Source: Lepidurus packardi
Lineage: Eukaryota > Arthropoda > Branchiopoda > Notostraca > Triopsidae
NCBI GenBank assembly: GCA_023053545.1
Contig: JAKZAN010000001.1
Span: 12,788,024-12,852,023, forward strand
DNA length: 64,000 bases
Direction: 5' to 3'
The position numbers and the translations under genes were made by a program. How positions within the stretch are numbered: position 1 is the first letter of the stretch; each line of letters opens with the position of its first letter. The notes below the pieces were generated by a model. That model made no database searches, was not told the DNA's origin, and saw nothing but the letters and a program-made list of their open reading frames with translations. This document shows positions 14,741 to 38,532 of this stretch, one piece after another.

Positions 14741-15257
14741 TTAATCGTCGTAGTAGTCGATGTGGCCGTTATGATGATGGTGATGTCTACATTGAGTAGA
14801 TAACGGAACGTAGAAAAATGTACTCGATTAGCACACCCTTAGTCAATTAAAGTTCTTAGGATAGTTTTACCCGTGTCCGTGGTGATGGTGACCTCCATGG
14901 CCGCCGCCATAACCGCCACCGCCATAGCCACCGCCATAACCACCGCCGCCATAGCCACCACCATAACCACCGCCGCCGTAGCCGCCACCACCATAGCCGC
15001 CATAGCCGCCGCCGTAGCCTCCGTAACGCTGCTCAGACCCTTCAACGTCCTCGCTGCTATCTTCAGATTCAATTGCGAAGTTGCCCATTGCACCTTCTAT
15101 CGGTACTGCTACCATAACGTCACGACGTACTCGAGGAATTGCATAACCCAGGCCAACCAAGCCCAGAAGCAATACCAAAATCTGTACAAATAAAGTTCAT
15201 CTCATTAAGATCATGCTATGGTTTTGAAAATGTTTTACTTACCAGCTTCACATCCAT
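14741..15257 (-). CDS. secreted Gly/Tyr/His-rich peptide precursor A
   Basis: Three exons (15257-15243 encoding MDVKL; 15181-14871; 14786-14741) give 123 residues. The signal peptide [19 protein letters not shown] is split by intron 1. It is followed by IPRVRRD, a furin-type dibasic site, an acidic spacer (ESEDSSEDVEGSEQRY), then Gly-Tyr repeats (GGYGGGGYGG) and a third exon adding a His-rich acidic tail, HHHHHNGHIDYYDD. Stopping at the first in-frame stop after exon 2 would end at GHG. The third exon is preferred because it joins in the right phase and is conserved in paralogues B, C, D and K. Secretion is inferred from the leader; antimicrobial, cuticular or metal-binding roles are all possible and none is shown. 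It is the copy nearest the intact VAT-1 gene. Confidence 0.85.
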
Positions 15258-15319
15258 GATTGCAGGCTAACAAGTCGAGGATGGAAACTGTTTGATACCT
15301 TTGCTGACTCAAGCACTGC

Positions 15320-15327
15320 TTTTATGC
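15320..15327 (-). promoter_or_regulatory. TATA-like box of peptide gene A
   Basis: CATAAAAG on the minus strand, about 65 bp upstream of the ATG, in the same relative position as TATAAAAG in the paralogues. Confidence 0.55.
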
Positions 15328-15383
15328 CAGAACTGTGCTTCGTAATTTTTGGGACTCACCTCTGGACTCACTGGACTCTTCCT

Positions 15384-15425
15384 CTGATCTGACCTTAAGC
15401 TATGAAAAACAAAAGAAAACCAGTT
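15384..15425 (-). promoter_or_regulatory. conserved upstream block of peptide genes
   Basis: CTGACCTTAAGCTATGGAAA followed by ACAATAACAGAAA, or close variants, recurs upstream of the TATA boxes of A (here), B (~20620), C (~22515), F (~28945), G (~29880), I (~33355) and J (~34285). It is read in the same place relative to each promoter, although the strand shown in the window varies. D has a weaker version near 25250. Confidence 0.6.
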
Positions 15426-16011
15426 TTACACACTATCTTTGGTACTAACCAAAGGAAGAAAACCCCAAACCAAGTTATTCATACGTCAGCATACGTTCTC
15501 TATAGATTATGCATAGACCCAAGTTACATCACTAGGTCCTTGACTCATTTACCCCGTTTTACATCGTTGTGACCACGTACACTAAAAGTGGTGAATCTGA
15601 TTTGGTCGCAGTTAATAAAGATGGAACCAGTTAGCAAAACTTACAAGAAGTTTATACGGGATTGTTGCCTAAAATCTGCACAGAAATGGTTCAGCGCTGT
15701 TTTTCGCCTTAATTTATATAGCAGATTCTTTCTTGACGTATTTAACTTCCTTATTTTATTACATTAGTTCAAATGTGGTTTTTAAAAATAATTAATCCTA
15801 CATTAATTAAAGATCAAATTTGAACGTTTTGTATTGCTTTGCATGTAGTCACCACCAATTTTTCACCATTTGAACCGGATTATAACAATTAAGACGGAAA
15901 ATTATGTGGGACCTGTATTACCTTGTTAGTGTTTTCGGTTTTTGTTTCAGTTCAATGGGCTTCAAAAGAATTTTTGTGTTGTGAGCTGTGGTTTGGTTGT
16001 CATTCTGGGAC

Positions 16012-16606
16012 AAGGTCAAATTTCTAAAGTTTCCACATCTGCTCCCAGCCAAGGGAAATGCCTTGAATCGCTCCCGAGGCTGTTAAACACTTTCTCATAT
16101 CAGTATTGGGCCTGCCTATAACAAATGCATCCTTTACTTTTTTGGTACAGTGGTATGGATGTCCAAGAAATCCTGACTCGACAAGTCTTGATCGATATCG
16201 CTCCCAAGACTCACATCATGGGAGGTGAAGTTGCTGGTAACGTTGTTGCCCTTTGATCCAATGTAATTAATTTTTAAAGGTAAGTTCATAGTTTACTTAT
16301 TTCGCTATTAAGTCGTGAATGGGTTTCAAATTGGTTTACTTACCAGCTTATACCCATGATTTTAAGTCAACAAGTAGAGGATGGGAAGTGTATTATTTAG
16401 TATTTCAGTAGCCGTACCCATAGCGAGGTCGATGGCGGTGACCATATCCTCCGCCGTAGCCTCCGCGGTGGGCTCTGCAGCCTCCGTAGCCGTATCGCGA
16501 CGCTGTAGCCATTACGATTCATGATATTTTTGTGTATTGAGACCTTGTTCGAGTTGATTGGTTTGCACCCTAGCAAATCCGTGTTAGTACACTCAGCAGC
16601 AGGATG
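16012..16606 (+). pseudogene. VAT-1 exon fragments (relic 1)
   Basis: About 16012-16087 matches the end of VAT-1 exon 1 and 16151-16278 matches exon 2 with its acceptor (TTGGTACAG) and donor. About 16545-16606 matches the middle of exon 3 (CTTGTTCGAGTTGATTGG). The exon-2 frame is broken where GTTGCCCTTTGA introduces a stop. A Gly-rich peptide fragment lies between the exon 2 and exon 3 pieces on the other strand, so the relic is rearranged as well as decayed. Confidence 0.9.
16335..16512 (-). pseudogene. peptide-family fragment with isolated C-terminal repeat
   Basis: A decayed copy of the 15-nt first exon with its GTAAGT donor is near 16337-16356 (one base short). Downstream in the other order, 16512-16405 encodes a 35-residue open frame (MATASRYGYGG...HRHRPRYGYGY) like the C-terminal repeat of the family but with no signal peptide. 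The pieces are in the wrong order to make a precursor, so this is treated as a relic inside VAT-1 relic 1. Confidence 0.7.
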
Positions 16607-17017
16607 GCTTATTTTGGAATAATGGGAACACTTGCTTCTGTGACAAGATTTTCTCGTAATAAACTGTTGTCTAGCACCAACGCCTTTATGTCAGTTGGCT
16701 TGGAAAAAGCTTGGAAAAATGCTTTCTATTCCATTTTTGTACTACATTATGCATATAGATAGGTTTAAGACCAAAACAGAGGCGGCTCTAGTATATGGAT
16801 ACCTAACATTAAAAAACTTGGTAACACGTTTTAGTTCATTTCGACGCCCATAAACTCGTTCTATTATTTTGAAAGCACCGCTCAGAGTAGAAAGGGAAGC
16901 ACAGATAACTTTTAACTCGGTGCTGCCATCTATACTGAAAGATATTTTCACCAGCTTTGAAATTTAAACCTATTATTTGTATTATTACTGCCTAGGACAA
17001 GGCTGACGCTTAAAATT

Positions 17018-18499
17018 ATGGCCAGGGAAACATCATTCGGAAAAGTATTAATGTTATCTAATATTATAGGAAAGCTCAAATAGGTTTAATAATTGTAAAA
17101 GGGATCATTTGGGCCTAGAGAACACCATGCCGTACAGTCAGCATTACAACAAAAGCTGGCTCCGGAGATGATAAGTCAAAGGCAAGGTCCTGGAGGAACT
17201 AAATTGGCTTACATTGAAGGTTGGCGACTGATAAGCCTAGCTAATGAAATGTTTGGATTTAATGGGTGGAGCCATTCTGTATCCCAACAGACTATAGGTA
17301 AATTAAAAGCATCTAAAGGGGGCAAATTTCATTGTAAAGTTAACAAAACATATCTGCTTGATACTCTCATTCTCCAGATTTTGTAGACAAGGAAGGGGAG
17401 AAGTTTTACGTTGGAGTAAGTGCTACTGTCAAAGTAGAGCTGAGGGATGGTTCCTACCATGAAGATATTGGTTATGGCGTTTGTGAGGGAATGAGATCCA
17501 AGGGCTTATCTCTGGAAAAAGCTCGCAAAGTAATGTCTTAACACTCCTTCGAACAGGCCTAAAATCGTTAGCTTATAGGAAGCTGCAACTGATGGCTTGA
17601 AGAGAGCTTTGAAAGCTTTCGGACATGCAATGGGCAACTGCTTGAGTGATAAAAACTATCTGCGATGGATTGGGAAATGCTCCGTATCTAGTCCTGCTGC
17701 GCCTGACCCTAAATCTTTAATTAACGAACGTGCTCCCACGGAAGTCTACAAAGCTCGCTACGATGCTATGCAGCAAATCGTGCCTCCTTCCACCCCCAAA
17801 ACCAATCTCCTTGCCATGCAAATGACCCTCGATGGGCAGCAAATGCAGGCAGCTACAAACCAGAAACTTCTAAAAACCGATGCCAATCTTCCTAATATTC
17901 CGTCTGAGTCTATCAAGACCGAGCCAATTGCAATGGAGGTCAATTCATCTGAATCAGTTTCAAATTTCAGTCCACCCACGAAGCTAATTAGCGTGCCCAA
18001 ATTCTCTGCCGAATTGAATAATTCTAATAACAGTGCCTCTGCCAGTGACGAAATGGAACGGTTGGAACGTAAGCGACGCCAGAATCAAAGGAAGCAAGAA
18101 TTTTTGGACCAACAGAAAAGGAAGAGAATGGAAAGTGGATCAATTGACAATATTAACAGCGTTTTGCAAGCCGAAGATGATGCGGAATTGTGGTTTCGGA
18201 ATGAAGAAGCCTTTGCCCTTGCCGCAGAAACAGGCGATAGCGAAGCTAGTGTTCAAGGAAGAGCACCGCCACTACCTGAAGATGACGTGGGTGATTCGCG
18301 TTTATTAATGCAATGTAATAATAGCCTCACTAAAGCAAAAGGCAATTACCCCAATGTATTAAAGTCCAAGGATGACAATGGCCTTCCTCCCCCTACTAAG
18401 AAGGTACTCTATAGTGCACCCTCTTCGAATACCGCAGGCATCTCAGCTCCCTCTAAATGTGTGCAACCTGCTCAGAAACGGACTACCCACCCCCTGTAG
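17018..18499 (+). CDS. RAD52: RAD52 DNA repair protein
   Basis: Four exons (17018-17044, 17102-17297, 17378-17529, 17579-18499) encode 431 residues; human RAD52 is 418. The N-terminal half is the conserved annealing domain: [76 protein letters not shown] and [15 protein letters not shown]. These line the DNA-binding groove of the oligomeric ring. RAD52 anneals complementary single strands and mediates recombination in the nucleus. The C-terminal half is low-complexity with a basic region ([20 protein letters not shown]), an acidic patch and a KKV-type end; it is not conserved at sequence level. The 27-nt first exon (MARETSFGK) is the least certain part. The gene sits alone inside the peptide cluster, between relic 1 and peptide gene B. 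Confidence 0.94.
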
Positions 18500-19660: not shown

Positions 19661-20138
19661 TTAACCCCAGTAGCCGCCATGGTGGTGATGGTGATGTCTT
19701 CAGTAGGCAGATAACGGAACGTAGAAAACTCGATTAGTATACACTTTTAGTCAAACGAAGTTATTAGTATAATGTTACCCGTGGCCGTGGCCGCCGCCAT
19801 AGCCTCCATGGCCACCACCATAGCCTCCATAGCCGCCTCCGCCATAGCCGCCACCGCCATAGCCGCCACCGCCATAGCCGCCACCGCCATAGCTTCCGTA
19901 ATGCTGCTCAGACCCTTCAAAGTCCTCGTTGCTTTCTTCAGAGCCAATTGCGGAGTCGCCCAATTCACCTTCTATCGGAACTGCTACCATAACGTCACGA
20001 CGTACTCGAGGAATTGCATAACCCAGGCTAATCAAGCCCATAAGCAATACCAAAATCTGTAAGAAAATAAAAACTGGACCCATTAAAATCGTCAGGGTTT
20101 TAAAATATGTATCTTTGCCTTACCAACTTCAGATCCAT
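19661..20138 (-). CDS. secreted Gly/Tyr/His-rich peptide precursor B
   Basis: Three exons (20138-20124 encoding MDLKL; 20056-19779; 19697-19661) give 109 residues. The order is signal peptide (ILVLLMGLISLGYA), IPRVRRD dibasic site, acidic spacer (GSEESNEDFEGSEQHY), Gly-Tyr repeat GGGGYGGGGYGG, then exon 3 with HHHHHHGGYWG and a stop. Frame through exon 3 is phase 2, as in A, C and D. The closest paralogue by spacer sequence is A. TATA box at 20201. Confidence 0.86.
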
Positions 20139-20200
20139 GGTTGTAGCTTGACCAGTAGAGGCTGGAAAGTGTATGTTTCGTTTGCAGACTTGAGCACGGC

Positions 20201-21199: not shown

Positions 21200-21211
21200 G
21201 TGCAATGTTGT

Positions 21212-21530
21212 ATTGCGAGCAAATTTGGAGAAGTGGGTTCATTGGTGCGAAATGGAATTGCTCCAAGAAGGGAAATAAGGTGGTAATGAGATACGAGCTG
21301 TCATCTTGTCGGGATTCAGGGACACGAGCAAGGTTAAGGTCACAAAGCTGCCGCTGTTTTGCCTGGCCAAAGGGAGTCGTGATTCGCTCCAGAGCTTGGT
21401 AGACAGTATCGGTGATTACTCATAATTTTAACATCTTCTTAGACTTTTACTTTTTGCCATCTTAGTTTACTAATCTATGCTTCGTTTGCTAGATTCTCTC
21501 CTCGTGGTGTTGGCGTTGTCTTGCATGGCA
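21212..21530 (+). pseudogene. VAT-1 exon fragments (relic 2)
   Basis: About 21212-21402 matches the end of VAT-1 exon 1 (coiled-coil end and the first residues of the enzyme domain: GAAATGGAATTGCTCCAAGA, then TGTCGGGATTCAGGGACACG). About 21487-21530 matches the start of exon 5 (AGATTCTCTCCTCGTGGTGT). Exons 2-4 are missing and frames are broken. It is followed by flank DNA and then peptide gene C on the other strand. Confidence 0.9.
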
Positions 21531-21892: not shown

Positions 21893-22351
21893 TTAACCCC
21901 AGTAGCCGCCATGGTGGCGATGGTGATGTCTTCATTGGGTAGATAACGGAGCGTAGAAAAAATGTACTCGATTTAGTATTCCCTTAATCAATCGAAATTC
22001 TTATAGCATAAGTTTACCTGTGTCCATAGCCTCCATAGCCGCCGCCGCCATAGCCACCGCCGCCATAGCCACCGCCGCCATAGCCACCGCCTCCATAGCC
22101 TCCATAACCACCGCCTCCGTAGCCTCTGTAACGGTGCTCAGACCCTTCAAGTTCTTCATCGCTAAGGTCAATTGCAAAGTCGCTCATTGCACCTTCTACC
22201 GGTACTGCTTCCATAACATCACGACGGACTCGAGGAATAGCATAACCCAGGCCAATCAAGCCCATAAGCAAAATCAAAATCTGTACAAATAAACTTCAAC
22301 TCTTTAAAAATCAAGCTCGGGGTTTAAAAATATTTTACTTACCAGCTTCAT
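21893..22351 (-). CDS. secreted Gly/Tyr/His-rich peptide precursor C
   Basis: Three exons (22351-22343; 22280-22018; 21929-21893) give 102 residues. The codon aligned with the family start reads ATT instead of ATG (ATTGATATGAAGCTG). Translation must therefore begin two codons later at MKL, which still leaves a good signal peptide (MKLILILLMGLIGLGYA). Then come IPRVRRD, an acidic spacer ending LEGSEHRYRGYGG, Gly-Tyr repeats, and exon 3 ending HHHRHHGGYWG. TATA box at about 22443. Confidence 0.83.
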
Positions 22352-23048: not shown

Positions 23049-23713
23049 CAGTGGTACCTCGACATACGAGTTTAATTCGTTCCGCAACCTTGCTCGTATC
23101 TTGAATTACTCGTATCTCGAAGCAAATTTTCCCATACAAAACAATTGAACTACCATTAATCCGTTCCAACCCCCAAAATGTCGCCCCAGTTATTTTTACT
23201 ACGTGGTTTTGAATTTTGTTTACGTGGTTTTCTAGATAAGCCAATAAATGATCTACTCCTCTATTGATATAAAATTTATTTATCTAGTTAATTCCTAATT
23301 TTACCAATTTTTCAGTCCAATATTTTTTATTTTTTTCAATGGATTTCTCTATCCCCTTCTCCTCAATATTTGCTAGTCGTATTGAAATATCCTATTGAAA
23401 CTATTAGCTTCTTGGTAATATTCGCTCTTGATAATTATCTATTCAATGCTATGACCAGCGTATAAGCGTGGAATCTCATTCGTTGAGTATCTTGGAAAAG
23501 TTTTACTCCTAGTCAGTACTGTTTTTACACCAATTTAAACATGGCATTTATTTTTGGTAATTTTTTTTTTCACACATTGCATCAACATCAATCTGCTAAA
23601 CCGAACTCGTACCTCGAATTTCGCTCGTAACTCAAAGCAAAAAATCACTAGCTCGCCGGCTCGCATCTCGAAAAACTCGTATGTTGGGGCACTCGTATGT
23701 CGAGGTACCACTG
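23049..23713. mobile_element. 665-bp Tc1/mariner-type MITE
   Basis: The two ends are perfect inverted repeats for 23 bp beginning CAGTGGTACCTCGACATACG, with further imperfect match inward (many CTCGTATxTCGA units). The element is flanked by TA on both sides (23047-48, 23714-15), the target duplication of the Tc1/mariner superfamily. There is no transposase ORF, so it is non-autonomous. It is inserted just upstream of VAT-1 relic 3. Confidence 0.92.
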
Positions 23714-23726
23714 TATTGCTATCACT

Positions 23727-24330
23727 TTCTGTGGAGCGGGTTCGTCTCCGCGAAATGGAATGGCTCAAAGAAGTTCAAGGTGAAGTTAACTAATGAAATG
23801 CGAGCTGTGATGCAGTCATGATTCGGGGATAGGAAGGGTCACAAAGTTGCCACGTATCTGATCTAGGATAGGACAAAGGAGAAGAGTTGAATTGCTCCTA
23901 TGACTGGTAAACAGTATTTCTATTCCAGTATTCTGTTTTTTTTTTTTTAAAAAAGCTTTTCTTTTCTTTTTAAATGTGATGAATTTCCAAGATGTCGTGG
24001 CTCGACAAGTCTTGATGATAGAACTACCAAGACCCCAATCACCTTAGCAGGGGAGGTTGCTAATGATAGTTTTGCCATTGGACCCAATGTTATTGATTTT
24101 ATATTAAGTTCGTAGTTACTTCCTTTTTCATCTTTATTTCGTGAATTGCAAATAGAAATGCCTTCGTTGAAAGCGCCTGAGGACTAACTTAACCGAATGC
24201 GGAGTGGATTGTGTGAACGAGGTTCGGCAGTAAGTCATCTTGCCATCGCTGCTTTAATAAGTAGTTTATACTCATCTCATACGCCGCTTGCTAGGTCATC
24301 TCCACGTCGTGTTGACATTGTCTTGTACTG
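23727..24330 (+). pseudogene. VAT-1 exon fragments (relic 3)
   Basis: Pieces follow in native order: exon 1 end (about 23727-23909), exon 2 (about 23976-24113, GATGAATTTCCAAGATGTCG), end of exon 4 (about 24166-24231, ending at CGAGGTTCGGCAGTAAGT) and start of exon 5 (about 24294-24330). Exon 3 is gone and stops are present. This is the most complete of the three relics. Confidence 0.9.
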
Positions 24331-24669: not shown

Positions 24670-25105
24670 TTAACCCCAGTAGCCGCCATGGTGGCGATGA
24701 CGATAGCGATGTCTTCATTGGGCAGGTAACGGAACGTAGAAAAATGTACTCGATTAGTGTACCCTTAGTCAATCGAAGTGTTTCGCATAATTTTACCCGT
24801 GGCCATAGCCTCCATAGCCTCCATAGCCGCCATAGCCACCGTATCCACCGTAGCCTCCGTAGCCTCTGAAACGCTTCTCAGACCCTTCAAGTTCTTCATC
24901 GCTAGGGTCAATTGCAAAGTCGCCCATTGTACTTTCTATCGGTACTGCTTCCATAACGTCACGACGGACTCGAGGAATAGCATAACCCAGGCCAACCAAG
25001 CCCATAAGCAAAACCAAAATCTGTACAGAAATACAAACTTGACCCATTCAAATGTTCAGGCTTTTAAATTATGTATCTCTTCTGCCTTACCAACTTCAGA
25101 TCCAT
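24670..25105 (-). CDS. secreted Gly/Tyr/His-rich peptide precursor D
   Basis: Three exons (25105-25091 encoding MDLKL; 25020-24797; 24712-24670) give 93 residues, the shortest intact three-exon member. The order is signal peptide ILVLLMGLVGLGYA, IPRVRRD site, acidic spacer (DPSDEELEGSEKRFRG), six GYG units, and exon 3 ending HRYRHRHHGGYWG. The upstream conserved block is weaker than in the other copies. Confidence 0.85.
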
Positions 25106-25563: not shown

Positions 25564-26126
25564 ATGGTATCCAGGCTGGTACTTCTATTTAAAGGTTAAA
25601 GTTAACGGGATTTAAAAATGCAATTTATTCACAGAGTTTTGTGGTGGTATTGGCCATGGTCAGTTACAGCTGTGCATTTCCTCGACAGAAGCGTGGACTC
25701 TTTCTGCTTCCCATTGGGTCCGTTCAGTTAGCAACTTTTGGTTCTCAGGCAGGAATTGCCACCGAATCAACTTTTAACCCTAAGCCGCTCTTTGAGACTC
25801 TTTCAGTTTTAAATCCTCGACCACTGTTTGATGCTCTACCAAATTTAAACCCCCAACCACTCCTTGATGCTCGGGCAGCTCTGAATCCTAAGCAAATTTT
25901 CCAAGCTGCACTGTATGTTGATCGGGCAAAATCCATTCGTACAGGTGAGGACTTCGATGAAGACGAGGAAAGCCAAGATGATGTGGCGGCACCCGAAATC
26001 GAGTACCGTCGCTGGGGCGGACATCGCCATCACGGAGGGTACAGAAAAAAATAACACAAATCTTTACCATTACTGAATTGATTGTTTATCTCTAGTTACT
26101 ACCATCACCGACGCCGCTGGTATTAA
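25564..26126 (+). CDS. secreted peptide precursor with NPxPLFDAL repeats, same exon plan as the Gly-rich family
   Basis: Exons 25564-25578 (MVSRL), 25635-26038 and 26096-26126 give 149 residues. The leader MVSRLSFVVVLAMVSYSCA is followed by FPRQKRG, a furin-type site. The central part has four imperfect repeats (FNPKPLFETL, LNPRPLFDAL, LNPQPLLDAR, LNPKQIFQAA), then an acidic stretch (EDFDEDEESQDD) and WGGHRHHGG. The third exon adds YYHHRRRWY. Without that splice the frame ends at 26054 as GGYRKK. The 15-nt first exon, phase-2 second intron and His/aromatic last exon match genes A-D, which argues for common origin despite the different middle. The function is unknown; no relative was recognised. 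Confidence 0.75.
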
Positions 26127-26653: not shown

Positions 26654-26932
26654 TTATTTCGCTCCCCCTATCCGTAGCGAGGTAGGTGGTGGTATGCCTT
26701 CTGTGGTGGCCTCCGTCGTTTCCTCCGTGGTGGCTTCCGTGGTGGCATCCATGGCCTCATTGGTGTCCGTAACGCTGTTCGGACCCTTCAGAATCCTCTT
26801 CGCGATCTTCAGGTTCAGTTCAATTGCAAAGTCATCCATTACGTCTTCTTTCGGTACTGCTTCCATAATGTCACGATGGAATCGAGATATCGCATAACCT
26901 AATGCAATCAAGCCCATTAGCAATATCAAAAT
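26654..26932 (-). pseudogene. peptide-family copy E, frameshifted and without first exon
   Basis: The leader (ILILLMGLIALGYA) and propeptide (FHRDIMEAVPKED) are homologous to the other copies. A 5-bp duplication (TGAACTGAACCTGAAG where others read TTGAACCTGAAG) shifts the frame, so the Gly/His repeat is read as Thr/Glu-rich ATTEATTEETTEATTEG. No MDxKL exon or TATA box is found upstream, where the DNA is already BEL/Pao relic. Probably a dead copy. Confidence 0.75.
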
Positions 26933-28467: not shown

Positions 28468-28813
28468 TTAACCCCAGTGAGGTCGGTGGCGGTGACGGTG
28501 TCCTCCGCCGTAGCCTCCGCGGTGGCCTCCATAGCCTCCACGGTGACCTCCATAGCCTCCGCGGGGGCCCCTGTAGCCTCCGGAAAGCTGTTCAGGTATT
28601 TCAAAGTCCTCTTCGGGTTCTTCTTCAGTTTCATATGAAGAGACTGCATCTTCTTCCGGGACTGGTTCCATAAGATCGCGACGGACTCGCGGAGTCGCAT
28701 AACCCAAGGCAATGAAGCCCATAAGCAATACCAAAATCTGTACAAAGAAAGTTCATCTCTTTAAATTTAAGTTCGTGGTGTCAACACGTTTTACTTACCA
28801 GCTTCATATCCAT
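28468..28813 (-). CDS. secreted Gly/His-rich peptide precursor F
   Basis: Two exons (28813-28799 encoding MDMKL; 28737-28468) give 94 residues. The order is leader ILVLLMGFIALGYA, TPRVRRD site, strongly acidic spacer (ETEEEPEEDFEIPEQ), repeats of GGYGGHR and the tail GGGHRHRHRPHWG. The His-rich tail, which is a separate third exon in A-D and K, is here fused to exon 2, so the second intron has been lost cleanly. TATA box at 28876. The mirror copy J at 34434-34851 is damaged. Confidence 0.88.
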
Positions 28814-28875
28814 GATTATAGGCTACACAAGTAGAGGCTGGAAAGTGTTTGATACTATTGTAGATTCCAGCACAG

Positions 28876-28883
28876 CTTTTATA
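28876..28883 (-). promoter_or_regulatory. TATA box of peptide gene F
   Basis: TATAAAAG on the minus strand within GGTATAAAAGCTGTGCTGG, about 63 bp upstream of the ATG. Confidence 0.8.
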
Positions 28884-29956
28884 CCAAAACTTTGCCTCTT
28901 ATTTTTCAGCAAAGTGCAATGGACTTCAGCACTGGTCTCACCTTTGATCTGACCTTAAGCTATGGAACGCAATAACCGAAAGCGGGTAACGGTAGTATTG
29001 TTAGCGTAACAAAGTGTTACACAATGTCTTAGGTACCCAGTAGTGTTCTGTATTCCAGATGCACCTCTGAATCAATGAACACTTTTTGTAGTACCATTTT
29101 TGAACAAAAGTGGTGAACCTCACTATTTCTTACCTTATCATGGAGTGGAAAAGAAATATTATATACGTGTGATGCTATGTTCTAGAGCCCAGTATTGGAG
29201 AAAATGTTTGATAGACGCGTTATTAACCGTTTTTCCATAGAAGAACGAATTATTTTCAGCTCTCATCAAGTTTCACCATCACCCATCGTAATGGAGAATT
29301 CCGAAATGAATAACGTCATAAGCTCTTGATACATTCGAAACCCATTGGCTTATGTGGAAATCTTCTTCCCCAAAAATGCTCGGGACATTCTTCAAACGGG
29401 TGAATGATTTGGAAATTTCTTGGAAGCTGTTATAACCCCGCAAATTCCTAGTTACAACCCGGTTTAACTTAATGAATTCGAAATGTGTGACTACATGCAA
29501 AACAATACAGAAGGTCGAATTTGACTTACAAGTAACTTAGGATAAATTATTTTTGAAAATGCTACCTTTGAACTTATTATTGTAAAAGAACAGAGGAAGT
29601 TATATACGACAAGAAAGTATCCGCTATATATTACTTATGGCGAAACACAGCTGAAAAGCTTTTCTGGGCAGCTTTTGTGATATCATTATGTAGAAAGTTC
29701 TGATTGTGAGTGGTGATAACTGATTCCATATGTATTGGCTGCGAGAAAATTTCGTTTAACATTTTTAGCATAAGTTGTCAGTAAAAAAGGTACACGTGGG
29801 AATTAATGTGGTAACTAAGACATTGTGTAAAACTGGGTTACCCTAACATTACTACCGTTTTCTGTTATTGTTTTCCGTAGTTTATGGTCAGACCAGAGGT
29901 GAGTCCAGTGCTTAAGGGCATTGCACTTTGCCGAAGACTAAGAGGCAGACTTCTGG

Positions 29957-29964
29957 TATAAAAG
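29957..29964 (+). promoter_or_regulatory. TATA box of peptide gene G
   Basis: TATAAAAG within CTGGTATAAAAGCTGTGC, 63 bp before the ATG. The conserved upstream block lies at about 29860-29900. Confidence 0.8.
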
Positions 29965-30026
29965 CTGTGCTTGAATCTGCTAAAGCATCAAACACTTTCC
30001 AGCCTCTACTTGTGTAACCTACAATC

Positions 30027-30381
30027 ATGGATATGAAGCTGGTAAGTAAAACGTTTTGAAACCACGAACTTAAACTTAAAGAGATGATCTTTCTTTGTAC
30101 AGATTTTGGTATTGCTTATGGGCTTCATTGCCTTGGGTTATGCGACTCCTCGAGTCCGTCGCGATCTTATGGAACCAGTCCCGGTAGAAGATGCAATGGG
30201 TGTCTTTGCAGTTGAACCTGAAGAAGATTTCGCCGATGAGGACTTTGAAGGATCTGAACAGCGTTACGGAGGCTACGGAGGCCACCGCGGAGGCTATGGA
30301 GGTCACCGCGGAGGCTATGGAGGACATCGCGGAGGCTACGGCGGAGGACATCGTCACCACCACCGACCTTACTGGGGTTAA
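30027..30381 (+). CDS. secreted Gly/His-rich peptide precursor G
   Basis: Two exons (30027-30041 encoding MDMKL; 30103-30381) give 97 residues. The order is leader ILVLLMGFIALGYA, TPRVRRD dibasic site, acidic spacer (EPEEDFADEDFEGSEQRYGG), four GGHRGGYGGHR-type units and the tail GGHRHHHRPYWG in the same exon. The 3' UTR ends near AATAAA at about 30489. Its mirror image in the right palindrome arm (gene I) is identical in coding sequence. Confidence 0.9.
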
Positions 30382-30508
30382 ATCCGTACTGCTAGAACCA
30401 GATGACGAAAATCGCACGATTAAACACGCCCTTTCTATTTTGTTGAAATCTGTTCTAACTATTTATTTGCTGAATACACAGGTTAGTTAATAAAACAAAT
30501 GGTATCCA

Positions 30509-30682
30509 TCAACTCTTTCCACCGTGAATGTCTCGAACATCCCTTAAAGGGAAGAAAGGTTCGAACACTTCTTTAACCCTGTCTAATTTATCTTCAACAT
30601 ACAGCTTTTTGTATAATGGCACATACAGTGCTTTCTTTATCTCCAACGTAGTCTGACGCGATTCTTCCAGTTGTGTCGGTAG
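30509..30682 (-). other. exon-like open frame (second version)
   Basis: Mirror of 32565-32738. The frame reads LPTQLEESRQTTLEIKKALY...EPFFPLRDVRDIHGGKS and stops, with several residue changes from the 28167 version. It converges on the 3' end of peptide gene G. Confidence 0.45.
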
Positions 30683-30889
30683 CTACAAAACATGAACAAT
30701 TATTATTTATCTCCGAAGGTAACTCTGTCTGCATGGTAAATAGATGTGCGACCAGAATCCATGTCTGTCTAATGAAACCGAGTTTTTGTGGCGTCTTCTG
30801 GTCGTGAGCGAATGCTGCTAAACATTGCAGTTATATTCGTGGTAAACGCCATTGATCCTTAGTGAAACCTGATGAGGTCAATAGGTAAT

Positions 30890-31225
30890 TCTTTCTTTAA
30901 AGTTGGACACAAGCGTACAAAGTGTCCGAAGCATTCAAGCGTCTGAAGGCTGTCCAGGACATTATTAGGAAATTACATTTAAAACCTAAAACAATTGATG
31001 TAGCCTGTCTCAAAAGTATAAGAGCGTGATTTACTTTAAAATTATAATTGCCAAGACTTCAAGCTCCGAGGATTTCAGCGGTGCCTTTGGAGAGAAGACA
31101 ACCTTGGTATGAAACTTCTCGGTATCCGTTGGAAGCCAAATACTGAGGTTCTGACTGTCATGGGTTACAAACTAAAAAAAAAGATCCAATTCACACGAAG
31201 AAGACTGTTAAGCAAACTAGCTGGT
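30890..31225 (+). mobile_element. BEL/Pao retrotransposon pol relic in left arm
   Basis: Broken frames encode FKLRGFQRCLWRED, resembling the FQRxLWR motif of Pao-type reverse transcriptase. They are followed by MKLLGIRWKPNTEVLTV and FTRRRLLSKLAG, resembling the LGIRWxPxxDT...TKRxVLSxxAxxFDPLG segment of the peptidase A17 region. The palindrome's inner edge cuts the relic right after LSKLAG. Confidence 0.7.
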
Positions 31226-32021
31226 GCTGAGCTTATGACGTTATCCACTTCGGAATTCTCCATTACGATGGGTGACGGTGAAACTCGTTGAGTACTGCAT
31301 ATAATTCGTTCTTCTATGGAAAAACGGTTAATAACACGTCTATCAAACACTTTCTCCAATACTGGACTCCAGAACATAACATCACACGCATATAACATTC
31401 CTTTTCCACTCCATGATAAGGTAAGAAGTAGTGAGGTTTACCACTTTTGTTTAAAAATGTTACTACAAAAGTGTTCATTGATTCAAAGGTGCATCGGGTA
31501 TACAGAACACTACTGGGTACCTAAGACATTGTGTAAAACTCGTTTACCACGAATACAACTGCAATGTTTAGCAGCATTCGCTCACGGCCAGAAGACGCCA
31601 CAAAAACTCAGTTTCATAAGACAGACAAGGATTCTGGTCGCACATCTATTTACCATGTAGACAGTTTTATACGACAAGAAAGTATCCGCTGTATATTACT
31701 TATGGCGAAACACAGCTGAAAAGCTTTTCTGGGCAGCTACGGGGTACACCGCGGAGGCTATGGAGGTCACCGTGGAGGCTATGGAGGCCACCGCGGAGGC
31801 TACGGCGGAGGACACCGTCACCGCCACCGACCTCACTGGGGATAAATCCGGACGTCTAGAACCAGATGACGAAATTTCCACGATTATACACGGCCTATCC
31901 ATTCTGTTGAAATCTGTTCTAACTATTTATTTGCTGAATACACAAGTTAGTTAATAAAACAAAAGGTATCCATCAACTCTTTCGTGTTATACTCCACGAA
32001 GACCATAAATGGATTGGAGAT
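31226..32021. repeat. palindrome spacer, a mosaic of duplicated pieces
   Basis: About 796 bp between the arms. About 31226-31660 is another copy of the arm segment around 27740-28125 (including the frame MEKRLITRLSNTFSNTGLQN). About 31661-31737 matches 29602-29680. 31738-31980 is the 3' part of a peptide gene with its 3' UTR. The last part continues the BEL/Pao frame of the right arm (GISNPFMVF). Each junction is abrupt. Confidence 0.85.
31738..31845 (+). pseudogene. 5'-truncated peptide gene fragment H
   Basis: An open frame YGVHRGGYGGHRGGYGG and then HRHRHRPHWG with a stop, nearly identical to the end of gene F. There is no leader, first exon or promoter. It is joined upstream to unrelated DNA (AAAAGCTTTTCTGGGCAG). 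Confidence 0.85.
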
Positions 32022-32350
32022 ACCAGCTAGTTTGCTTAACAGTCTTCTTCGTGTGAATTGGATCTTTTTTTTTAGTTTGTAACCCAAGACAGTCAGAACC
32101 TCAGTATTTGGCTTCCAACGGATACCGAGAAGTTTCATACCAAGGTTGTCTTCTCTCCAAAGGCACCGCTGAAATCCTCGGAGCTTGAAGTCTTGGCAAT
32201 TATAATTTTAAAGTAAATCACGCTCTTATACTTTTGAGACAGGCTACATCAATTGTTTTAGGTTTTAAATGTAATTTCCTAATAATGTCCTGGACAGCCT
32301 TCAGACGCTTGAATGCTTCGGACACTTTGTACGCTTGTGTCCAACTTTAA
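31985..32350 (-). mobile_element. BEL/Pao retrotransposon pol relic in right arm and spacer
   Basis: The mirror of the left-arm relic, but here the frame continues past LSKLAG into ISNPFMVFVEYNT. This fits the position of the FDPLGxxSPF motif. The right-arm junction therefore keeps the older, uninterrupted relic. Confidence 0.7.
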
Positions 32351-32564
32351 AGAAAGAATTACCTATTGACCTCATCAGGTTTCACTAAGGATCAATGGCG
32401 TTTACCACGAATATAACTGCAATGTTTAGCAGCATTCGCTCACGACCAGAAGACGCCACAAAAACTCGGTTTCATTAGACAGACATGGATTCTGGTCGCA
32501 CATCTATTTACCATGCAGACAGAGTTACCTTCGGAGATAAATAATAATTGTTCATGTTTTGTAG

Positions 32565-32738
32565 CTACCGACACAACTGGAAGAATCGCGTCAGACTACG
32601 TTGGAGATAAAGAAAGCACTGTATGTGCCATTATACAAAAAGCTGTATGTTGAAGATAAATTAGACAGGGTTAAAGAAGTGTTCGAACCTTTCTTCCCTT
32701 TAAGGGATGTTCGAGACATTCACGGTGGAAAGAGTTGA
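32565..32738 (+). other. exon-like open frame, mirror copy
   Basis: The right-arm counterpart of 30509-30682 with the same 57-codon frame; see the entry at 28167. Confidence 0.45.
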
Positions 32739-32865
32739 TGGATACCATTTGTTTTATTAACTAACCTGTGTATTCAGCAAATAAATAGTTAGAACAGATT
32801 TCAACAAAATAGAAAGGGCGTGTTTAATCGTGCGATTTTCGTCATCTGGTTCTAGCAGTACGGAT

Positions 32866-33220
32866 TTAACCCCAGTAAGGTCGGTGGTGGTGACGATGTC
32901 CTCCGCCGTAGCCTCCGCGATGTCCTCCATAGCCTCCGCGGTGACCTCCATAGCCTCCGCGGTGGCCTCCGTAGCCTCCGTAACGCTGTTCAGATCCTTC
33001 AAAGTCCTCATCGGCGAAATCTTCTTCAGGTTCAACTGCAAAGACACCCATTGCATCTTCTACCGGGACTGGTTCCATAAGATCGCGACGGACTCGAGGA
33101 GTCGCATAACCCAAGGCAATGAAGCCCATAAGCAATACCAAAATCTGTACAAAGAAAGATCATCTCTTTAAGTTTAAGTTCGTGGTTTCAAAACGTTTTA
33201 CTTACCAGCTTCATATCCAT
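32866..33220 (-). CDS. secreted Gly/His-rich peptide precursor I (mirror of G)
   Basis: Exons 33220-33206 and 33144-32866, 97 residues, identical to gene G in coding sequence, promoter and intron position. TATA box at 33283-33290. Two identical copies in inverted orientation point to a very young duplication or to ongoing gene conversion between the arms. An assembly artefact is unlikely because the spacer and the F/J ends differ. Confidence 0.9.
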
Positions 33221-33282
33221 GATTGTAGGTTACACAAGTAGAGGCTGGAAAGTGTTTGATGCTTTAGCAGATTCAAGCACAG

Positions 33283-33290
33283 CTTTTATA
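33283..33290 (-). promoter_or_regulatory. TATA box of peptide gene I
   Basis: TATAAAAG on the minus strand, the mirror of the gene G box. Confidence 0.8.
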
Positions 33291-34363
33291 CCAGAAGTCT
33301 GCCTCTTAGTCTTCGGCAAAGTGCAATGCCCTTAAGCACTGGACTCACCTCTGGTCTGACCATAAACTACGGAAAACAATAACAGAAAACGGTAGTAATG
33401 TTAGGGTAACCCAGTTTTACACAATGTCTTAGTTACCACATTAATTCCCACGTGTACCTTTTTTACTGACAACTTATGCTAAAAATGTTAAACGAAATTT
33501 TCTCGCAGCCAATACATATGGAATCAGTTATCACCACTCACAATCAGAACTTTCTACATAATGATATCACAAAAGCTGCCCAGAAAAGCTTTTCAGCTGT
33601 GTTTCGCCATAAGTAATATATAGCGGATACTTTCTTGTCGTATATAACTTCCTCTGTTCTTTTACAATAATAAGTTCAAAGGTAGCATTTTCAAAAATAA
33701 TTTATCCTAAGTTACTTGTAAGTCAAATTCGACCTTCTGTATTGTTTTGCATGTAGTCACACATTTCGAATTCATTAAGTTAAACCGGGTTGTAACTAGG
33801 AATTTGCGGGGTTATAACAGCTTCCAAGAAATTTCCAAATCATTCACCCGTTTGAAGAATGTCCCGAGCATTTTTGGGGAAGAAGATTTCCACATAAGCC
33901 AATGGGTTTCGAATGTATCAAGAGCTTATGACGTTATTCATTTCGGAATTCTCCATTACGATGGGTGATGGTGAAACTTGATGAGAGCTGAAAATAATTC
34001 GTTCTTCTATGGAAAAACGGTTAATAACGCGTCTATCAAACATTTTCTCCAATACTGGGCTCTAGAACATAGCATCACACGTATATAATATTTCTTTTCC
34101 ACTCCATGATAAGGTAAGAAATAGTGAGGTTCACCACTTTTGTTCAAAAATGGTACTACAAAAAGTGTTCATTGATTCAGAGGTGCATCTGGAATACAGA
34201 ACACTACTGGGTACCTAAGACATTGTGTAACACTTTGTTACGCTAACAATACTACCGTTACCCGCTTTCGGTTATTGCGTTCCATAGCTTAAGGTCAGAT
34301 CAAAGGTGAGACCAGTGCTGAAGTCCATTGCACTTTGCTGAAAAATAAGAGGCAAAGTTTTGG

Positions 34364-34371
34364 TATAAAAG
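34364..34371 (+). promoter_or_regulatory. TATA box of peptide gene J
   Basis: TATAAAAG within TTGGTATAAAAGCTGTGCTG, the mirror of the gene F box. The promoter is intact. Confidence 0.8.
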
Positions 34372-34433
34372 CTGTGCTGGAATCTACAATAGTATCAAAC
34401 ACTTTCCAGCCTCTACTTGTGTAGCCTATAATC

Positions 34434-34851
34434 ATGGATATGAAGCTGGTAAGTAAAACGTGTTGACACCACGAACTTAAATTTAAAGAGATGAACTTTC
34501 TTTGTACAGATTTTGGTATTGCTTATGGTCTTCATTGCCTTGGGTTATGCGACTCCGCGAGTCCGTCGCGATCTTATGGAACCAGTCCCGGAAGAAGATG
34601 CAGTCTCTTCATATGAAACTGAAGAAGAACCCGAAGAGGACTTTGAAATACCTGAACAGCTTTCCGGAGGCTACAGGGGCCCCCGCGGAGGCTATGGAGG
34701 TCACCGTGGAGGCTATGGAGGCCACCGCGGAGGCTACGGCGGAGGACACCGTCTAGAACCAGATGACGAAATTTGCACGATTAAACACGGCCTACCCATT
34801 CTGTTGGAATCTGTTCTAACTATTTATTTGCTGAATACACAAGTTAGTTAA
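34434..34851 (+). CDS. peptide precursor J with deleted tail and read-through C-terminus
   Basis: Exons 34434-34448 and 34510-34851 give 118 residues. It follows gene F to GGYGGGHR, then a 37-bp deletion removes HRHRPHWG and the stop. The frame runs on through the former 3' UTR as LEPDDEICTIKHGLPILLES... to NTQVS. The deletion is bounded by short CGTC repeats (ACCGTC ... GACGTCTAG as preserved in fragment H). One leader residue also differs (LLMVFIALGYA for LLMGFIALGYA). Promoter and splice sites are intact, so it may still be expressed, but the conserved His/aromatic tail is replaced by a hydrophobic one. Confidence 0.8.
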
Positions 34852-34869
34852 TAAAACAAATGGTATCCA

Positions 34870-35043
34870 TCAACTCTTTCCATCGTGAATGTCTCGGACA
34901 TCCTTTAAACAGAAGAATGGTTCGAACACTTCTTTAACCCTGTCTAATTTATCTTCAACATACAGCTTTTTGTATAATGGCACATACAGTGATTTCTTTA
35001 TCTCCAACGTAGTCTGACGGGAGTCTTCCAGTTGTGTCGATAG
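34870..35043 (-). other. exon-like open frame, mirror copy
   Basis: Mirror of 28167-28340 with the LSTQLEDS version of the frame. Confidence 0.4.
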
Positions 35044-35476
35044 CTACAAAACATGAACAATTATTATTTATCTCCGAAGGTAGCTCTGTTTACATGGTAA
35101 ATAGATGTGCGACCAGAATCCTTGTCTGTCTTGTGAAACCGAGTTTTTGTGGCGTCTTCTGGCCGTGAGCGAATTCTGCTAAACATTGCAGTTATATTCG
35201 TGGTAAACGAGTTTTACACAATGTCTTAGGTACCCAGTAGTGTTCTGTATACCCGATGCACCTTTGAATCAATGAACACTTTTGTAGTAACATTTTTAAA
35301 CAAAAGTGGTAAACGTCACTACTTCTTACCTTATCATGGAGTGGAAAAGGAATGTTATATGCGTGTGATGTTATGTTCTGGAGCCCAGTATTGGAGAAAG
35401 TGTTTGATAGACGCGTTATTAACCGTTTTTCCATAGAAGAACGAATTATATGCAGTTCTCAACGAGTTTCACCGTC

Positions 35477-35560
35477 AAAACTTTGCCTCTTATTTTTCAG
35501 CAAAGTGCAATTGACTTTAGCACTAGTCTCACCTTTGATCTGACCTTAAGCTATGGAAGG
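35477..35560 (-). promoter_or_regulatory. orphan truncated peptide promoter, mirror copy
   Basis: Mirror of 27650-27733, also cut just before the TATA box. Confidence 0.65.
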
Positions 35561-35740
35561 CAATAACAGAAAACGGGTAACGGTAGTATTGTTAGCGTAA
35601 CCCAGTGTTACACAATCTCTTAGGTAGCGCAGTAATATTCTGTGTATCAGATTTACATCCCTGTGTCGATGACCCCTTGTGCCTTCCAGTTTTTTGCTCA
35701 GTTCAATGGACTTTTTGAAAATGTTGCGAAAACATCACAT

Positions 35741-36746
35741 TTACTGGAACTTTCATGAACTAGTAGAAAACAATAGCGCAGAAAATTTAAAACCTTCACC
35801 CTCTGTTGGATCATAACAAACCGAAGGCTTCACAGGTAACCGGTTACCCTTTCCTTATTACCTTTCTCGCCCTCCTTTCAACGACCAGCAGTTGTTATAC
35901 AGAGGTGATTGCTCCCAAACCGTTTGCAACCCTGAACAGTTGCTTCCCAGTTTGTAGGATGTGGACTTTTACGAAATATAAGTTACCGAACGAATTTGAT
36001 GTAAAAGGCTAATGAAAATATTGCCCAATAAATGATAATTCTTTGGAAACTTGTATAGCATGTAAATAAATCCTTACCCCTCCAATTCACTAATACTACA
36101 GCACTGTAATCCCTACCACTGACGGTTATTAGCATGAGCAATAGGGCTTGTGTAATTCAAAATATACAGGATAGCAGTACAAAGTCCTTTAAAAAGTAAG
36201 GGTGGGAATTGACTTGGATTTGATCTGAAATCGTAGCGCTACTCGGGCTTCCCTTGTACCAATAACTCAGCACTACGGTAAGATTTTTGTGTACTACTTG
36301 GTTTTTATTCACTTTCAAAATTATTATGTTTGTTATGTTCCTTCATTGAATAGTGCAATGCATAATAATATTAATAATAATAATGACAGCAGATCGTGTC
36401 ACCTGGGGGGGGGGGGAGGTTAAAAGCTGCTTGCTGTAAATACGGCAATAACGCAAATAACTCTGCCCCAAAAGATTATTCAATACCTAATTCTGGATAG
36501 TTTAAGTTCGTTACGTTATGTCTACTCCAGTAGGTTGAAGGTCGTAAGTATGAACGTAATGTTATTCCTTCATTAACAGTAAACAAATTTAAGATGCACA
36601 ACATAAAAAAATAAACAAAAATGGCTAGAATCAGTGTTAGGTAACTTGTATTTTTGGCAAATAAATTGTCGGAGCATAACAATCTAGTGCAATAAGCTTT
36701 AGAGAGTAAGCACTTTCGTCGTATTTCATAGTGAAGTGATCAAGGT
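35741..36746. other. intergenic right of the palindrome
   Basis: No supported gene. A 13-base G run is at about 36405-36417 and (ATA/AAT)n-like sequence at about 36362-36386. An open frame at 35806-36012 with a hydrophobic stretch and four Cys has no ATG (see rejected list). Confidence 0.5.
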
Positions 36747-37229
36747 TTAGCCATAAAATCCTCCGCGATGACGATGATGGTGTCTTCATTATGCAAAATA
36801 TAGAAAAATTACTCGCTTAGTATTTTGTTGACATTGAAGAATTTGTACACAGTATAAACTTACCTGTGCCCATATCCTCCTCCGTACCCACCATATCCGC
36901 CATAGCCCCCGTATCCGCCATATCCTCCGTATCCGCCGTAACCTCCGTGCCCCCTATGACGATGTTCGGAAGCGTCAATGTCCACTTCCCAAGAATTATC
37001 GTTAGCATTGCCTCCTAGGTCTATAACAAGGGCGGCTTCACTATCTTCTAGCTCTTCTGCTACCAAAATGCCCCCGTCATCGCCAAGCACCAGAGGTTTC
37101 GCGGAAGCCAGGGCAACCAAGCCGAACAAAGCGAACATCTTAATAATAAGACAAAATTAGTCAAGAAGCGTTTAAGGTCTACGATTTCCACATGCTTTAA
37201 AACTTTAGCCTTACAAATTTCGTATCCAT
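36747..37229 (-). CDS. secreted Gly/Tyr/His-rich peptide precursor K (diverged)
   Basis: Three exons (37229-37215 encoding MDTKF; 37138-36864; 36783-36747) give 108 residues. The leader MDTKFMFALFGLVALASA is followed by KPLVLGDDGG with no RVRR site, a long acidic spacer (EELEDSEAALVIDLGG), HRHRGHGG, seven GGYGGYGG-type units, and a third exon ending HHHRHRGGFYG. The exon plan and splice phases are those of A-D. This is the first copy outside the VAT-1-linked modules and has the clearest divergence, so it may be closer to the ancestral gene. Confidence 0.87.
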
Positions 37230-37289
37230 GATAGTAACTCAAGTAAACGATGCGTATTGAGTGATCCATTCTGCAGTGCTGGCTGAACT

Positions 37290-37297
37290 TTTATACC
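37290..37297 (-). promoter_or_regulatory. TATA box of peptide gene K
   Basis: TATAAAAG on the minus strand (GGTATAAAAGTTCAGCC), about 60 bp upstream of the ATG. Confidence 0.75.
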
Positions 37298-37752
37298 ATA
37301 TTTTGCACTTACAGTGCAATGAACCTTACCGGACTGGCTAAGCAACTGATCTGACAAAACCAACTACTGGAACAAAAACGTACACATGTATGTACACAGG
37401 TCAAGAACCGTGCATTTCGTAACACACTGGGGACTTATACATCGGATAATCGATACTGTGGTACACGAACCAGCGACCAGTATCAATACACAGGTGAATA
37501 TAATGTCTAGCTCAGCGGAAACTATTAAAATGAGGACCACTGTTATAGGCCGGAGAAATTTAGAGTCTTTTGACGTTCAAATGTTATTCAAGAAACTCTC
37601 TGTTTTTCTAATACGCTTACCCGAAAGTTACCAAGAACATGGAAAAACACGCAGGTAAAAATCGAGCGTTACATCGTGTTAGGCAATGTTTCAGTATAAT
37701 TTTATTACACTTAAGAATTTCGCTCCTCTCCAAGTTCAGAGCTATTTTTTTC

Positions 37753-37884
37753 ATGTTTTTCCTAAATTTCCAGGTCTATATCTTAGCATTTTGCGTAGGC
37801 CTAGCGGTCGATAACCAGGCAATATTCGTAAGACGGGGATCCCCAGCCAGTAAAACCTTCTTTCTATTGCCCTCCAGAAAATAA
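37753..37884 (+). CDS. possible small secreted peptide, 43 aa
   Basis: MFFLNFQVYILAFCVGLAVD looks like a signal peptide and is followed by NQAIFVRRGSPASKTFFLLPSRK. VRRG would be a dibasic cleavage site, and FFLLP echoes RGLFLLPIG in the precursor at 25564. The frame is open 114 bp further upstream. No TATA box or first exon was assigned. It lies between peptide genes K and L. Could be chance. Confidence 0.35.
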   Translation: MFFLNFQVYILAFCVGLAVDNQAIFVRRGSPASKTFFLLPSRK

Positions 37885-37992
37885 CAACCAATCCATCCGA
37901 CCTTCAACTTATCCTTTCACAGATAAGGTCTCTCCACGAATACTGACGAGGTACCTCTAATGTTTTTTATGTTGATGCGTTAAACTTGCCGG

Positions 37993-38000
37993 TATAAAAG
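37993..38000 (+). promoter_or_regulatory. TATA box of peptide gene L
   Basis: TATAAAAG within CCGGTATAAAAGCCAGTCC. A non-coding first exon appears to run to a GTGAATATT donor at about 38074, with the acceptor (CCTTCAG) directly before the ATG at 38140. Confidence 0.75.
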
Positions 38001-38139
38001 CCAGTCCATTCTTCGTTGAAAACATCAGTTCTCTTCTTCTCTCGCAAGCATCACTTACCGTCTCATACGCGAAGGTGAATATTGGGTTTTACATAGGTTT
38101 ACAACAATAATTTTACACAATTTTTTCCTTATCCTTCAG

Positions 38140-38532
38140 ATGTTTAAGTTGACTCTCGTGCTCCTCGGGTTGTGCCTGGCGGTGGCTTCAGCTGAACCTC
38201 AGCCGGAAGACCTACAGGTTGTAAAAGAGCCTATTGCCGCACAACCTCTTGTCGCAGAAAACAGCGATATGACCGCAGAAGAACACAAGTATAAAGGATA
38301 TGGTCGTTTTGCCAGCATAGGTTACGGTTATCCAAGTTATGGTTACGCTTACCCAAGCTATGGTTATGCCTATCCTAGCTATGGGTACGGTGGTTACCCA
38401 AGCTACGGCTACGGATACGGGTAATGTCTCGCCAAAACCACATCTATTTAGATGCTTATTGTTGACTTTTTGTCTTTTTTTCACAGGCGACCAATGGGCT
38501 ATGGCTATGGCAAAAGGAAGTATTACGGTTAA
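38140..38532 (+). CDS. secreted Tyr-rich PSYGYAY repeat peptide precursor L
   Basis: Coding exons 38140-38420 and 38487-38532 give 108 residues. The leader MFKLTLVLLGLCLAVASA is followed by an acidic spacer (EPQPEDLQVVKEPIAAQP...AEEHKYKGYGR) and four YPSYGYA(Y) repeats. The last exon adds GRPMGYGYGKRKYYG. The unspliced frame would stop after GYGYG, but the phase-2 splice and the aromatic, basic last exon match the rest of the family. It differs in that translation starts in exon 2, the repeat has Pro-Ser, and the tail has Lys/Arg instead of His. It could be a structural cuticle-like peptide; function unknown. Confidence 0.85.

Follow-up and report, generated by a model that had tools for sequence, protein, structure and literature searches.

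A stretch of 64,000 nucleotides of the Lepidurus packardi genome (C1:12788024-12852023, within 108.6 Mb in 344 contigs), referred to here as the window, contains a cluster of genes predicted to encode secreted peptides rich in Gly, Tyr, and His. Gene models were assembled by reading the sequence with the help of scripts, and all are in frame. Three-exon models were obtained for genes A, B, C, D, and K on the minus strand and for gene P on the plus strand. In these six genes, the first coding exon measures 15, 15, 9, 15, 15, and 15 nt, respectively; intron 1 lies in phase 0 and spans 56-76 nt; intron 2 lies in phase 2 and spans 57-88 nt; and the last exon, here called the tail exon, measures 46, 37, 37, 43, 37, and 31 nt. 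Exon 1 of C is only 9 nt long because ATT stands where its relatives have ATG.

Gene A comprises exon 1 at 15243..15257 (MDVKL), exon 2 at 14871..15181, which encodes the remainder of the signal peptide, IPRVRR, an acidic spacer, and the Gly-Tyr part, and a tail exon at 14741..14786 (HHHHHNGHIDYYDD, then stop) that has diverged and has no aromatic-Gly end. Also on the minus strand lie B (exon 1, 20124..20138, MDLKL; exon 2, 19779..20056; tail, 19661..19697, HHHHHHGGYWG), C (exon 1, 22343..22351, MKL; exon 2, 22018..22280; tail, 21893..21929, HHHRHHGGYWG), D (exon 1, 25091..25105, MDLKL; exon 2, 24797..25020; tail, 24670..24712, HRYRHRHHGGYWG), and K (exon 1, 37215..37229, MDTKF; exon 2, 36864..37138; tail, 36747..36783, HHHRHRGGFYG), each tail being followed by a stop codon. 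Gene P, on the plus strand, has exon 1 at 25564..25578 (MVSRL), exon 2 at 25635..26038, and the weakest tail call of the set at 26096..26126 (YYHHRRRWY, then stop); its exon 2 encodes, in order, the signal remainder, FPRQKR, four 12-residue repeats of NPxPLFDAL type, an acidic stretch, and RRWGGHRHHG.

Gene L (plus strand) is without a short first coding exon, its ATG forming the first bases of an exon that follows a probable intron in the 5' untranslated region (UTR). This exon (38140..38420) carries PSYGYAY repeats and is separated by an intron 2 of 66 nt from a last exon of 46 nt (38487..38532, RPMGYGYGKRKYYG, then stop). Intron 2 is absent from genes G, I, and J, whose exon 2 continues directly into RHRHRPHWG or RHHHRPYWG. 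G lies on the minus strand (exon 1, 28799..28813, MDMKL; exon 2, 28468..28737, fused tail RHRHRPHWG), I on the plus strand (exon 1, 30027..30041, MDMKL; exon 2, 30103..30381, fused tail RHHHRPYWG), and J, the inverted-repeat twin of I, on the minus strand (exon 1, 33206..33220; exon 2, 32866..33144).

An earlier note on this DNA had proposed a fixed exon grammar for a secreted family with a common leader and tail and a variable middle. The grammar was partly confirmed: the in-frame models of A, B, C, D, K, and P follow it, and L shares the last-exon rule, as had been claimed. Common leader and tail exons were found in A-D, K, and P and only in part in L, the tail of A being without the family ending. 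The middle is outright different from that of the Gly-Tyr members in P and L, so far in line with the note; of its supposed intron-2-less derivatives, G, I, and J do read through into the tail, and F proved to be a broken copy. It is reasonable to expect that tail exons shorter than 50 nt are easily missed by annotation.

Tail exons and intron 2

The tail exons are supported because G, I, and J, which have no intron 2 at the exact junction, keep the same tail. G and I cross the predicted junction (GG followed by ACA) without interruption and run on to TGG GGT TAA, and five copies on contig C4, three of them distinct as proteins, are likewise intron-2-less. Further support comes from the differences between the C and K tails, because these fall mostly at third codon positions (0, 3, and 10 at the first, second, and third positions; 10 of 13, P = 0.0016 against 1/3), with 7 synonymous and 3 nonsynonymous codons. 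For other pairs, which are not mutually independent, the same bias gave P values of 0.0085 (B-K and D-K), 0.035 (I-K), 0.09 (I-C), and 0.21 (G-C), while the close pairs B-C, D-C, and G-I show two differences each, none at a third position. K is distant from A-D, with a leader DNA identity of 55-60%, near the level of its intron 1 (51-59%).

Pattern searches were run over the whole genome, with the reversed pattern as control. A tail-exon pattern composed from the B, C, D, and K tails themselves matched only these four genes at up to 3 mismatches, and the control matched nowhere. The tail of A is a counterexample, being 67-70% like the other tails, compared with 81-83% for its intron 2. Those of P and L were called from splice sites, frame, and composition and have no paralogue for comparison. 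Overall, we conclude from these sequence comparisons that the gene structures and tail exons are real, P and L being less certain.

If the tail exons were unused, intron 2 would be retained, the proteins would end at GHG, GHR, or GYG, and the tails would be relics in the 3' UTR. This would agree with the retained forms of A, B, C, D, K, and L, which stop at once, the phase-2 GTAA donor itself making TAA (the retained form of P stops a few codons later), and with the conservation of the A tail, lower than that of its intron 2. We regard it as very improbable, given the clean absence of the intron with the tail kept in G, I, and the C4 copies and the third-position bias of the C-K differences. 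Moreover, K keeps the tail pattern, yet its 80 downstream bases match those of A-D no better than shuffles do (235-273 of 300 reach the score).

A stretch near the 3' splice site of intron 2 is common to K and to A, B, C, and D (local score reached by 0, 3, 1, and 0 of 500 shuffles, respectively) and corresponds to the branch point and pyrimidine tract (ACTAAKCGAGTA-ATTTTTCTA). Between K and A-D, neither intron 1 (182-425 of 500 shuffles) nor the downstream bases are conserved, and upstream segments gave mixed results. An 11-base core of the stretch, at 1 mismatch, occurs four times in the window (A, B, D, and K), a number equaled by 6 of 100 shuffles; a 22-base pattern, at 2 mismatches, was found in A, in D, and at two places on contig C5, with no match for the reversed control. 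Conservation of this stretch beside an unconserved intron 1 and 3' flank would fit regulated splicing. RNA structure as a splicing element was unsupported in the five introns analyzed (z, -0.79 to +1.63).

Because K also has intron 2, its loss in the G/I lineage appears likelier than gain in the others, and the retention of the 5' intron alone would be in keeping with partial conversion by cDNA. Intron 2 might also act as a switch, A, B, C, D, K, and L each encoding a short near-neutral peptide and a spliced one, though we consider this doubtful. With cut points between segments set by eye, the calculated charge at pH 7 rises from core to full peptide in C (+1.0 to +3.5), D (+1.0 to +4.4), K (+1.2 to +4.5), and L (+1.9 to +5.9), is little changed in B (+0.2 to +0.7), and moves the opposite way in A (+0.5 to -2.0). 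Were there such a switch, the G/I lineage would have fixed the tailed form by losing the intron. Paralogues with and without intron 2 offer a natural test of the effect of a short cationic tail on a Gly-rich peptide.

Multi-unit relatives and divergence of the family

With the I, K, and L proteins as queries, unlinked relatives were located at C4:4.74-4.82 Mb and on contig C2 at 2.89 and 9.96 Mb. The Gly-Tyr genes at these places encode two or three units, in each of which an acidic spacer leads through a D-L-T-x-E-E-H-x-x-R-type junction to a Gly-Tyr stretch; the repeated unit reads RGRRDV..VAE...DLTAEEHxxRGYGG, with RGRRD or RWRRD between units. In Gly-Trp relatives, RWRRD sites are present and the junction is weaker. 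One or two internal RGRR or RWRR sites before D or N are present in all eight C4/C2 open reading frames (ORFs) listed by a filter that itself required a basic site and that omitted L060 and L061, which also show RGRRD; the eight terminate in RRW, NRW, or IRW. The precursors at C4:4.74-4.80 Mb and C2:2.89 Mb have, by eye, a promoter stretch in common (approximately TTTCACGGCCACCG before TATAAA).

A 15-residue junction profile was built from 15 typed C4/C2 units, a sixteenth, of odd length, having been dropped. At the corresponding place in the window precursors, its score was reached by 0 of 2,000 shuffles in C, D, K, L, and P and by 16, 23, and 16 of 2,000 in A, B, and I, respectively. The leader of P is in register with those of A, B, D, G, and I (2 of 20,000 segment shuffles reach the match), and its middle repeats have no convincing relative elsewhere in the genome (best other E = 0.36). 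The sequence itself shows the gene structure, the reading frame of the tail, and a junction motif in common with the multi-unit precursors. The window genes, in the most likely reading, are related to those precursors but carry a single unit and an added tail exon. The repeats on C4 and C2 also suggest what the furin-type sites delimit.

Genome-wide, MKL directly followed by GTAAGT occurs 25 times, against 5 for the reversed control; 8 occurrences are family members on C1 and C4, and 17 are others. The unlinked C4/C2 precursors open with a 4-codon exon (MKFF, MKFL, MKIL, or MKTF) and then a phase-0 intron. A short first coding exon alone is not special to the family, and such exons are common in insect cuticle genes. 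The last-exon grammar is confined to the window cluster, as far as the tail pattern detects.

The earlier note had also expected a fast-evolving mature part, which was not seen in A-D and G-I, where the acidic spacer changes more. In seven pairs (those among A-D plus G-I), the ratio of the nonsynonymous to the synonymous proportion of differences (pN/pS) was 0.03-0.46 for the Gly-Tyr part, 0.67-2.5 for the acidic spacer, and 0-1.6 for signal plus propeptide; protein-guided alignment of repeats biases the first range low, and few changes underlie the spacer values. Fisher's test gave values below 0.01 for the Gly-Tyr part in five of the seven pairs (B-D, 0.12; G-I, 0.10). Spacer values were 0.56-0.89 in the A-I, D-I, and C-G pairs, and two C4 copies differ in the spacer only (4 nonsynonymous and 0 synonymous changes). 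A general rule of drifting spacers is countered by I and three C4 copies, with a spacer pN/pS of 0.08-0.33 on 4-7 changes. The Gly-Tyr part varies in length more than in residue choice. Positive selection on leader or spacer was considered and rejected: some pairs have a pN/pS above 1, without significance in that direction in any Fisher test. A cassette system, understood as a shuffling mechanism, is unsupported as well, since tandem and inverted duplication with divergence would be a sufficient explanation of the family's spread.

Precursor layout and candidate function

In members other than L, the signal peptide is split by the phase-0 intron. In A-D, G, I, J, P, and M (a damaged twin of G, described below), it is directly followed by an xPRxxR propeptide with a predicted furin-type site, RVRR or RQKR. 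The acidic spacer that follows measures about 30 residues, except in K (47) and P (about 106, with NPxPLFDAL repeats ahead of the acidic stretch). After it there is usually a basic junction of SExR/K type, with His there in B, and the last segment is the Gly/Tyr/His-rich peptide. Calculated at pH 7, the acidic segment carries -6 to -14 in nine of nine precursors, and the predicted released peptide carries +3.5 to +7.5 in seven (C, D, G, I, K, L, and P). In five of the nine precursors (C, D, K, L, and P), the positive charge comes mostly from the tail. At pH 5.5, all predicted released peptides have about +6 or more. An aromatic-Gly end closes seven of the nine precursors (B, C, D, G, I, K, and L); it is a possible amidation signal, suggestive only in so Gly-rich a family. 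The genome encodes copper monooxygenase domains, which do not by themselves point to an amidating enzyme.

Taken together, this layout makes it about an even prospect, in our judgment, that the genes encode furin-processed host-defense peptides that are secreted with an acidic spacer. We infer cleavage, amidation, site of action, and antimicrobial activity as follows. A furin-like enzyme would cut after RVRR, and trimming near the basic junction would then free the Gly-rich peptide from its acidic mask. The spliced tail exon would contribute basic residues, His, and, in most members, an aromatic-Gly C terminus. The released peptide may act on body or gut surfaces by binding microbial envelopes, and its His residues could strengthen that binding at acid pH. 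If the products are defense effectors, they would add a further arthropod peptide family, one that homology searches could miss because it is of low complexity and has a last exon of less than 50 nt.

Several observations weigh against this proposal. The predicted released peptides of A (-2.0) and B (+0.7) are negative or near neutral at pH 7, A and P have no aromatic-Gly end, and K and L have no RVRR site. The basic junctions depart from canonical furin sites; G has no such junction and also does not match the junction profile (722 of 2,000 shuffles reach its score). In Pfam, with its cuticle and DIM families included, none of five window proteins (A, I, P, K, and L) and three relatives exceeded a gathering cutoff. 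No κB-type site was found in the 300 bp upstream of nine genes, an uninformative result with 0.2-0.3 expected. Lastly, Gly-Tyr-rich secreted proteins of arthropods are often structural. In the same upstream regions, GATA sites numbered 5 (5.1 expected) and ecdysone-type AGGTCA half-sites 6 (1.8 expected), the latter too weak for use in nine nonindependent promoters.

The main rival to a defense role is that the products are secreted proteins, rich in Gly, Tyr, and His, of the cuticle, the peritrophic lining, the egg coat, or an adhesive, cross-linked via Tyr and His, with a propeptide that maintains solubility until secretion. We hold this to be possible and less probable. The Gly (44-62%) and Tyr (10-24%) contents of A-D, G, I, and K speak for it, as do repeats that keep residue identity while varying in length, as structural repeats do, and the further Gly-rich frames seen by eye in the genome. 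Like Gly-rich cuticle and egg-coat proteins, the window genes have Gly-Tyr repeats and small secreted products. They differ in that their C4/C2 relatives have repeated RxRRD furin-type sites and acidic spacers between units, which would be unusual for matrix proteins, and in that no Pfam domain, cuticle families included, exceeded the cutoff. The Gly-rich parts are also merely 38-66 residues long in A-D, G, I, and K. Precursors of neuropeptides or peptide hormones, released by furin or dibasic cleavage and amidated at a C-terminal Gly, would agree with GKRKYYG in L, the aromatic-Gly ends of B, C, D, G, I, K, and L, and the copper monooxygenase domains, a kind that amidating enzymes carry; we consider them improbable, given low-complexity repeats in place of a short conserved bioactive motif, several near-identical copies, a terminal Gly that is likely anyway at Gly-rich ends, and a Cu2_monooxygen match that would fit dopamine-hydroxylase relatives too.

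For the host-defense proposal, the closest functional model is most likely, by analogy, the action of nematode NLP-29 or of armadillidin. YGGYG and YGGWG motifs are said to typify nematode NLPs and caenacins (PMC6780910), and excerpted descriptions have the NLP29 precursor cut into six Gly-rich peptides. As described there, the NLP-29 cluster and the caenacins resemble the window genes in being basic, rich in Gly and aromatic residues, clustered, and recently duplicated. YGGYG is present in six of nine window members (A, B, C, D, I, and K; not G, L, or P), and the predicted released peptide is clearly basic in seven of nine. The spacer behind RVRR and the separate tail exon of the window genes go unmentioned in these partial descriptions. 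The likeness is one of shared motif, and a motif alone does not make homology.

Armadillidins of terrestrial isopods are described, in the available portions of the source, as linear peptides rich in Gly, with repeats of GGGF(H/N)(R/S) or GGYR type (GGGFHR in armadillidin H) and a conserved 19-residue signal peptide, found in Oniscidea only, with one sequence per transcriptome, Helleria excepted. Synthetic armadillidins are stated to have been made without C-terminal amidation, which suggests that the native one is amidated. The Gly-aromatic repeats of the window members may be of a comparable kind: GGGY or GGGGY runs occur in A-C and GGHR or GGYGG in G and I, and the GGGF motif is absent. The furin site, acidic spacer, and gene structure of the window genes go unmentioned in those portions. 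Excerpts on Drosophila Baramicin A (BaraA) and Drosocin and on apidaecin present host-defense precursors cut at RXRR or RVRR sites into several peptides. The window layout, in which signal peptide, RVRR site, acidic spacer, and Gly-rich peptide succeed one another, resembles that of BaraA and Drosocin. The C4/C2 relatives are likened to these by layout, with a similar repeated-unit plan and predicted RXRR-type sites separating the units; unlike the multipeptide precursors, intact window members are single-unit. The family itself is not named in the titles and abstract openings listed by searches of open-license papers.

Broken copies, duplications, and neighboring features

The family occupies over two dozen places in this one genome, some of them broken. 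Copy F (26654..26929, minus strand) is ruled out as an intronless gene by a shifted frame, a stop in the Gly-rich part, and the lack of a first exon in an exon-1 scan. Copy M (34434..34851, plus strand), near-identical to G, is without the tail and continues into unrelated residues (37 gap columns in the alignment). Two Gly-rich 3' fragments of family members were also found, one (16405..16512, minus strand) reading RYGYGGCRAHRGGYGGGYGHRHRPRYGYGY, then stop, and one of G type ending in RHRHRPHWG (31732..31845, plus strand).

A near-perfect inverted repeat spans 28494..34753, with arms of 2,732 nt at 28494-31225 and 32022-34753 that differ by 2 mismatches and flank a spacer of 796 nt. It contains I and J in full and the greater part of both G and M, and I and J encode an identical protein because they lie within it. 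It may be either a palindrome of recent origin, with conversion between its arms, or a fold-back of the assembly. Inverted pairs are also contained in the copies at C4:8.707-8.714 Mb, which adjoin retroelement-like reverse transcriptase and gag ORFs seen by eye (L027 3942-6878, C4:8.714-8.717 Mb).

Between the peptide genes, at approximately 15980-16280, 21200-21500 (recognized by eye), and 23950-24120, lie degenerate pieces resembling a gene at 11321-13877, part of which seems to have been carried along with the duplicated unit. We take this gene to encode a VAT-1-like oxidoreductase; Pfam gave no name for the exon queried. By eye, the interval between C and D also contains an element at 23050-23720 whose inverted ends match (cagtggtacctcgacatacgag and its reverse), perhaps a small DNA transposon remnant. 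A RAD52-family gene lies within the cluster at 17168-18499 (Pfam Rad52_Rad22, E = 1.3e-14). TTAGG arrays, in keeping with an arthropod genome, are present elsewhere, and one of them reaches the last base of contig C3.

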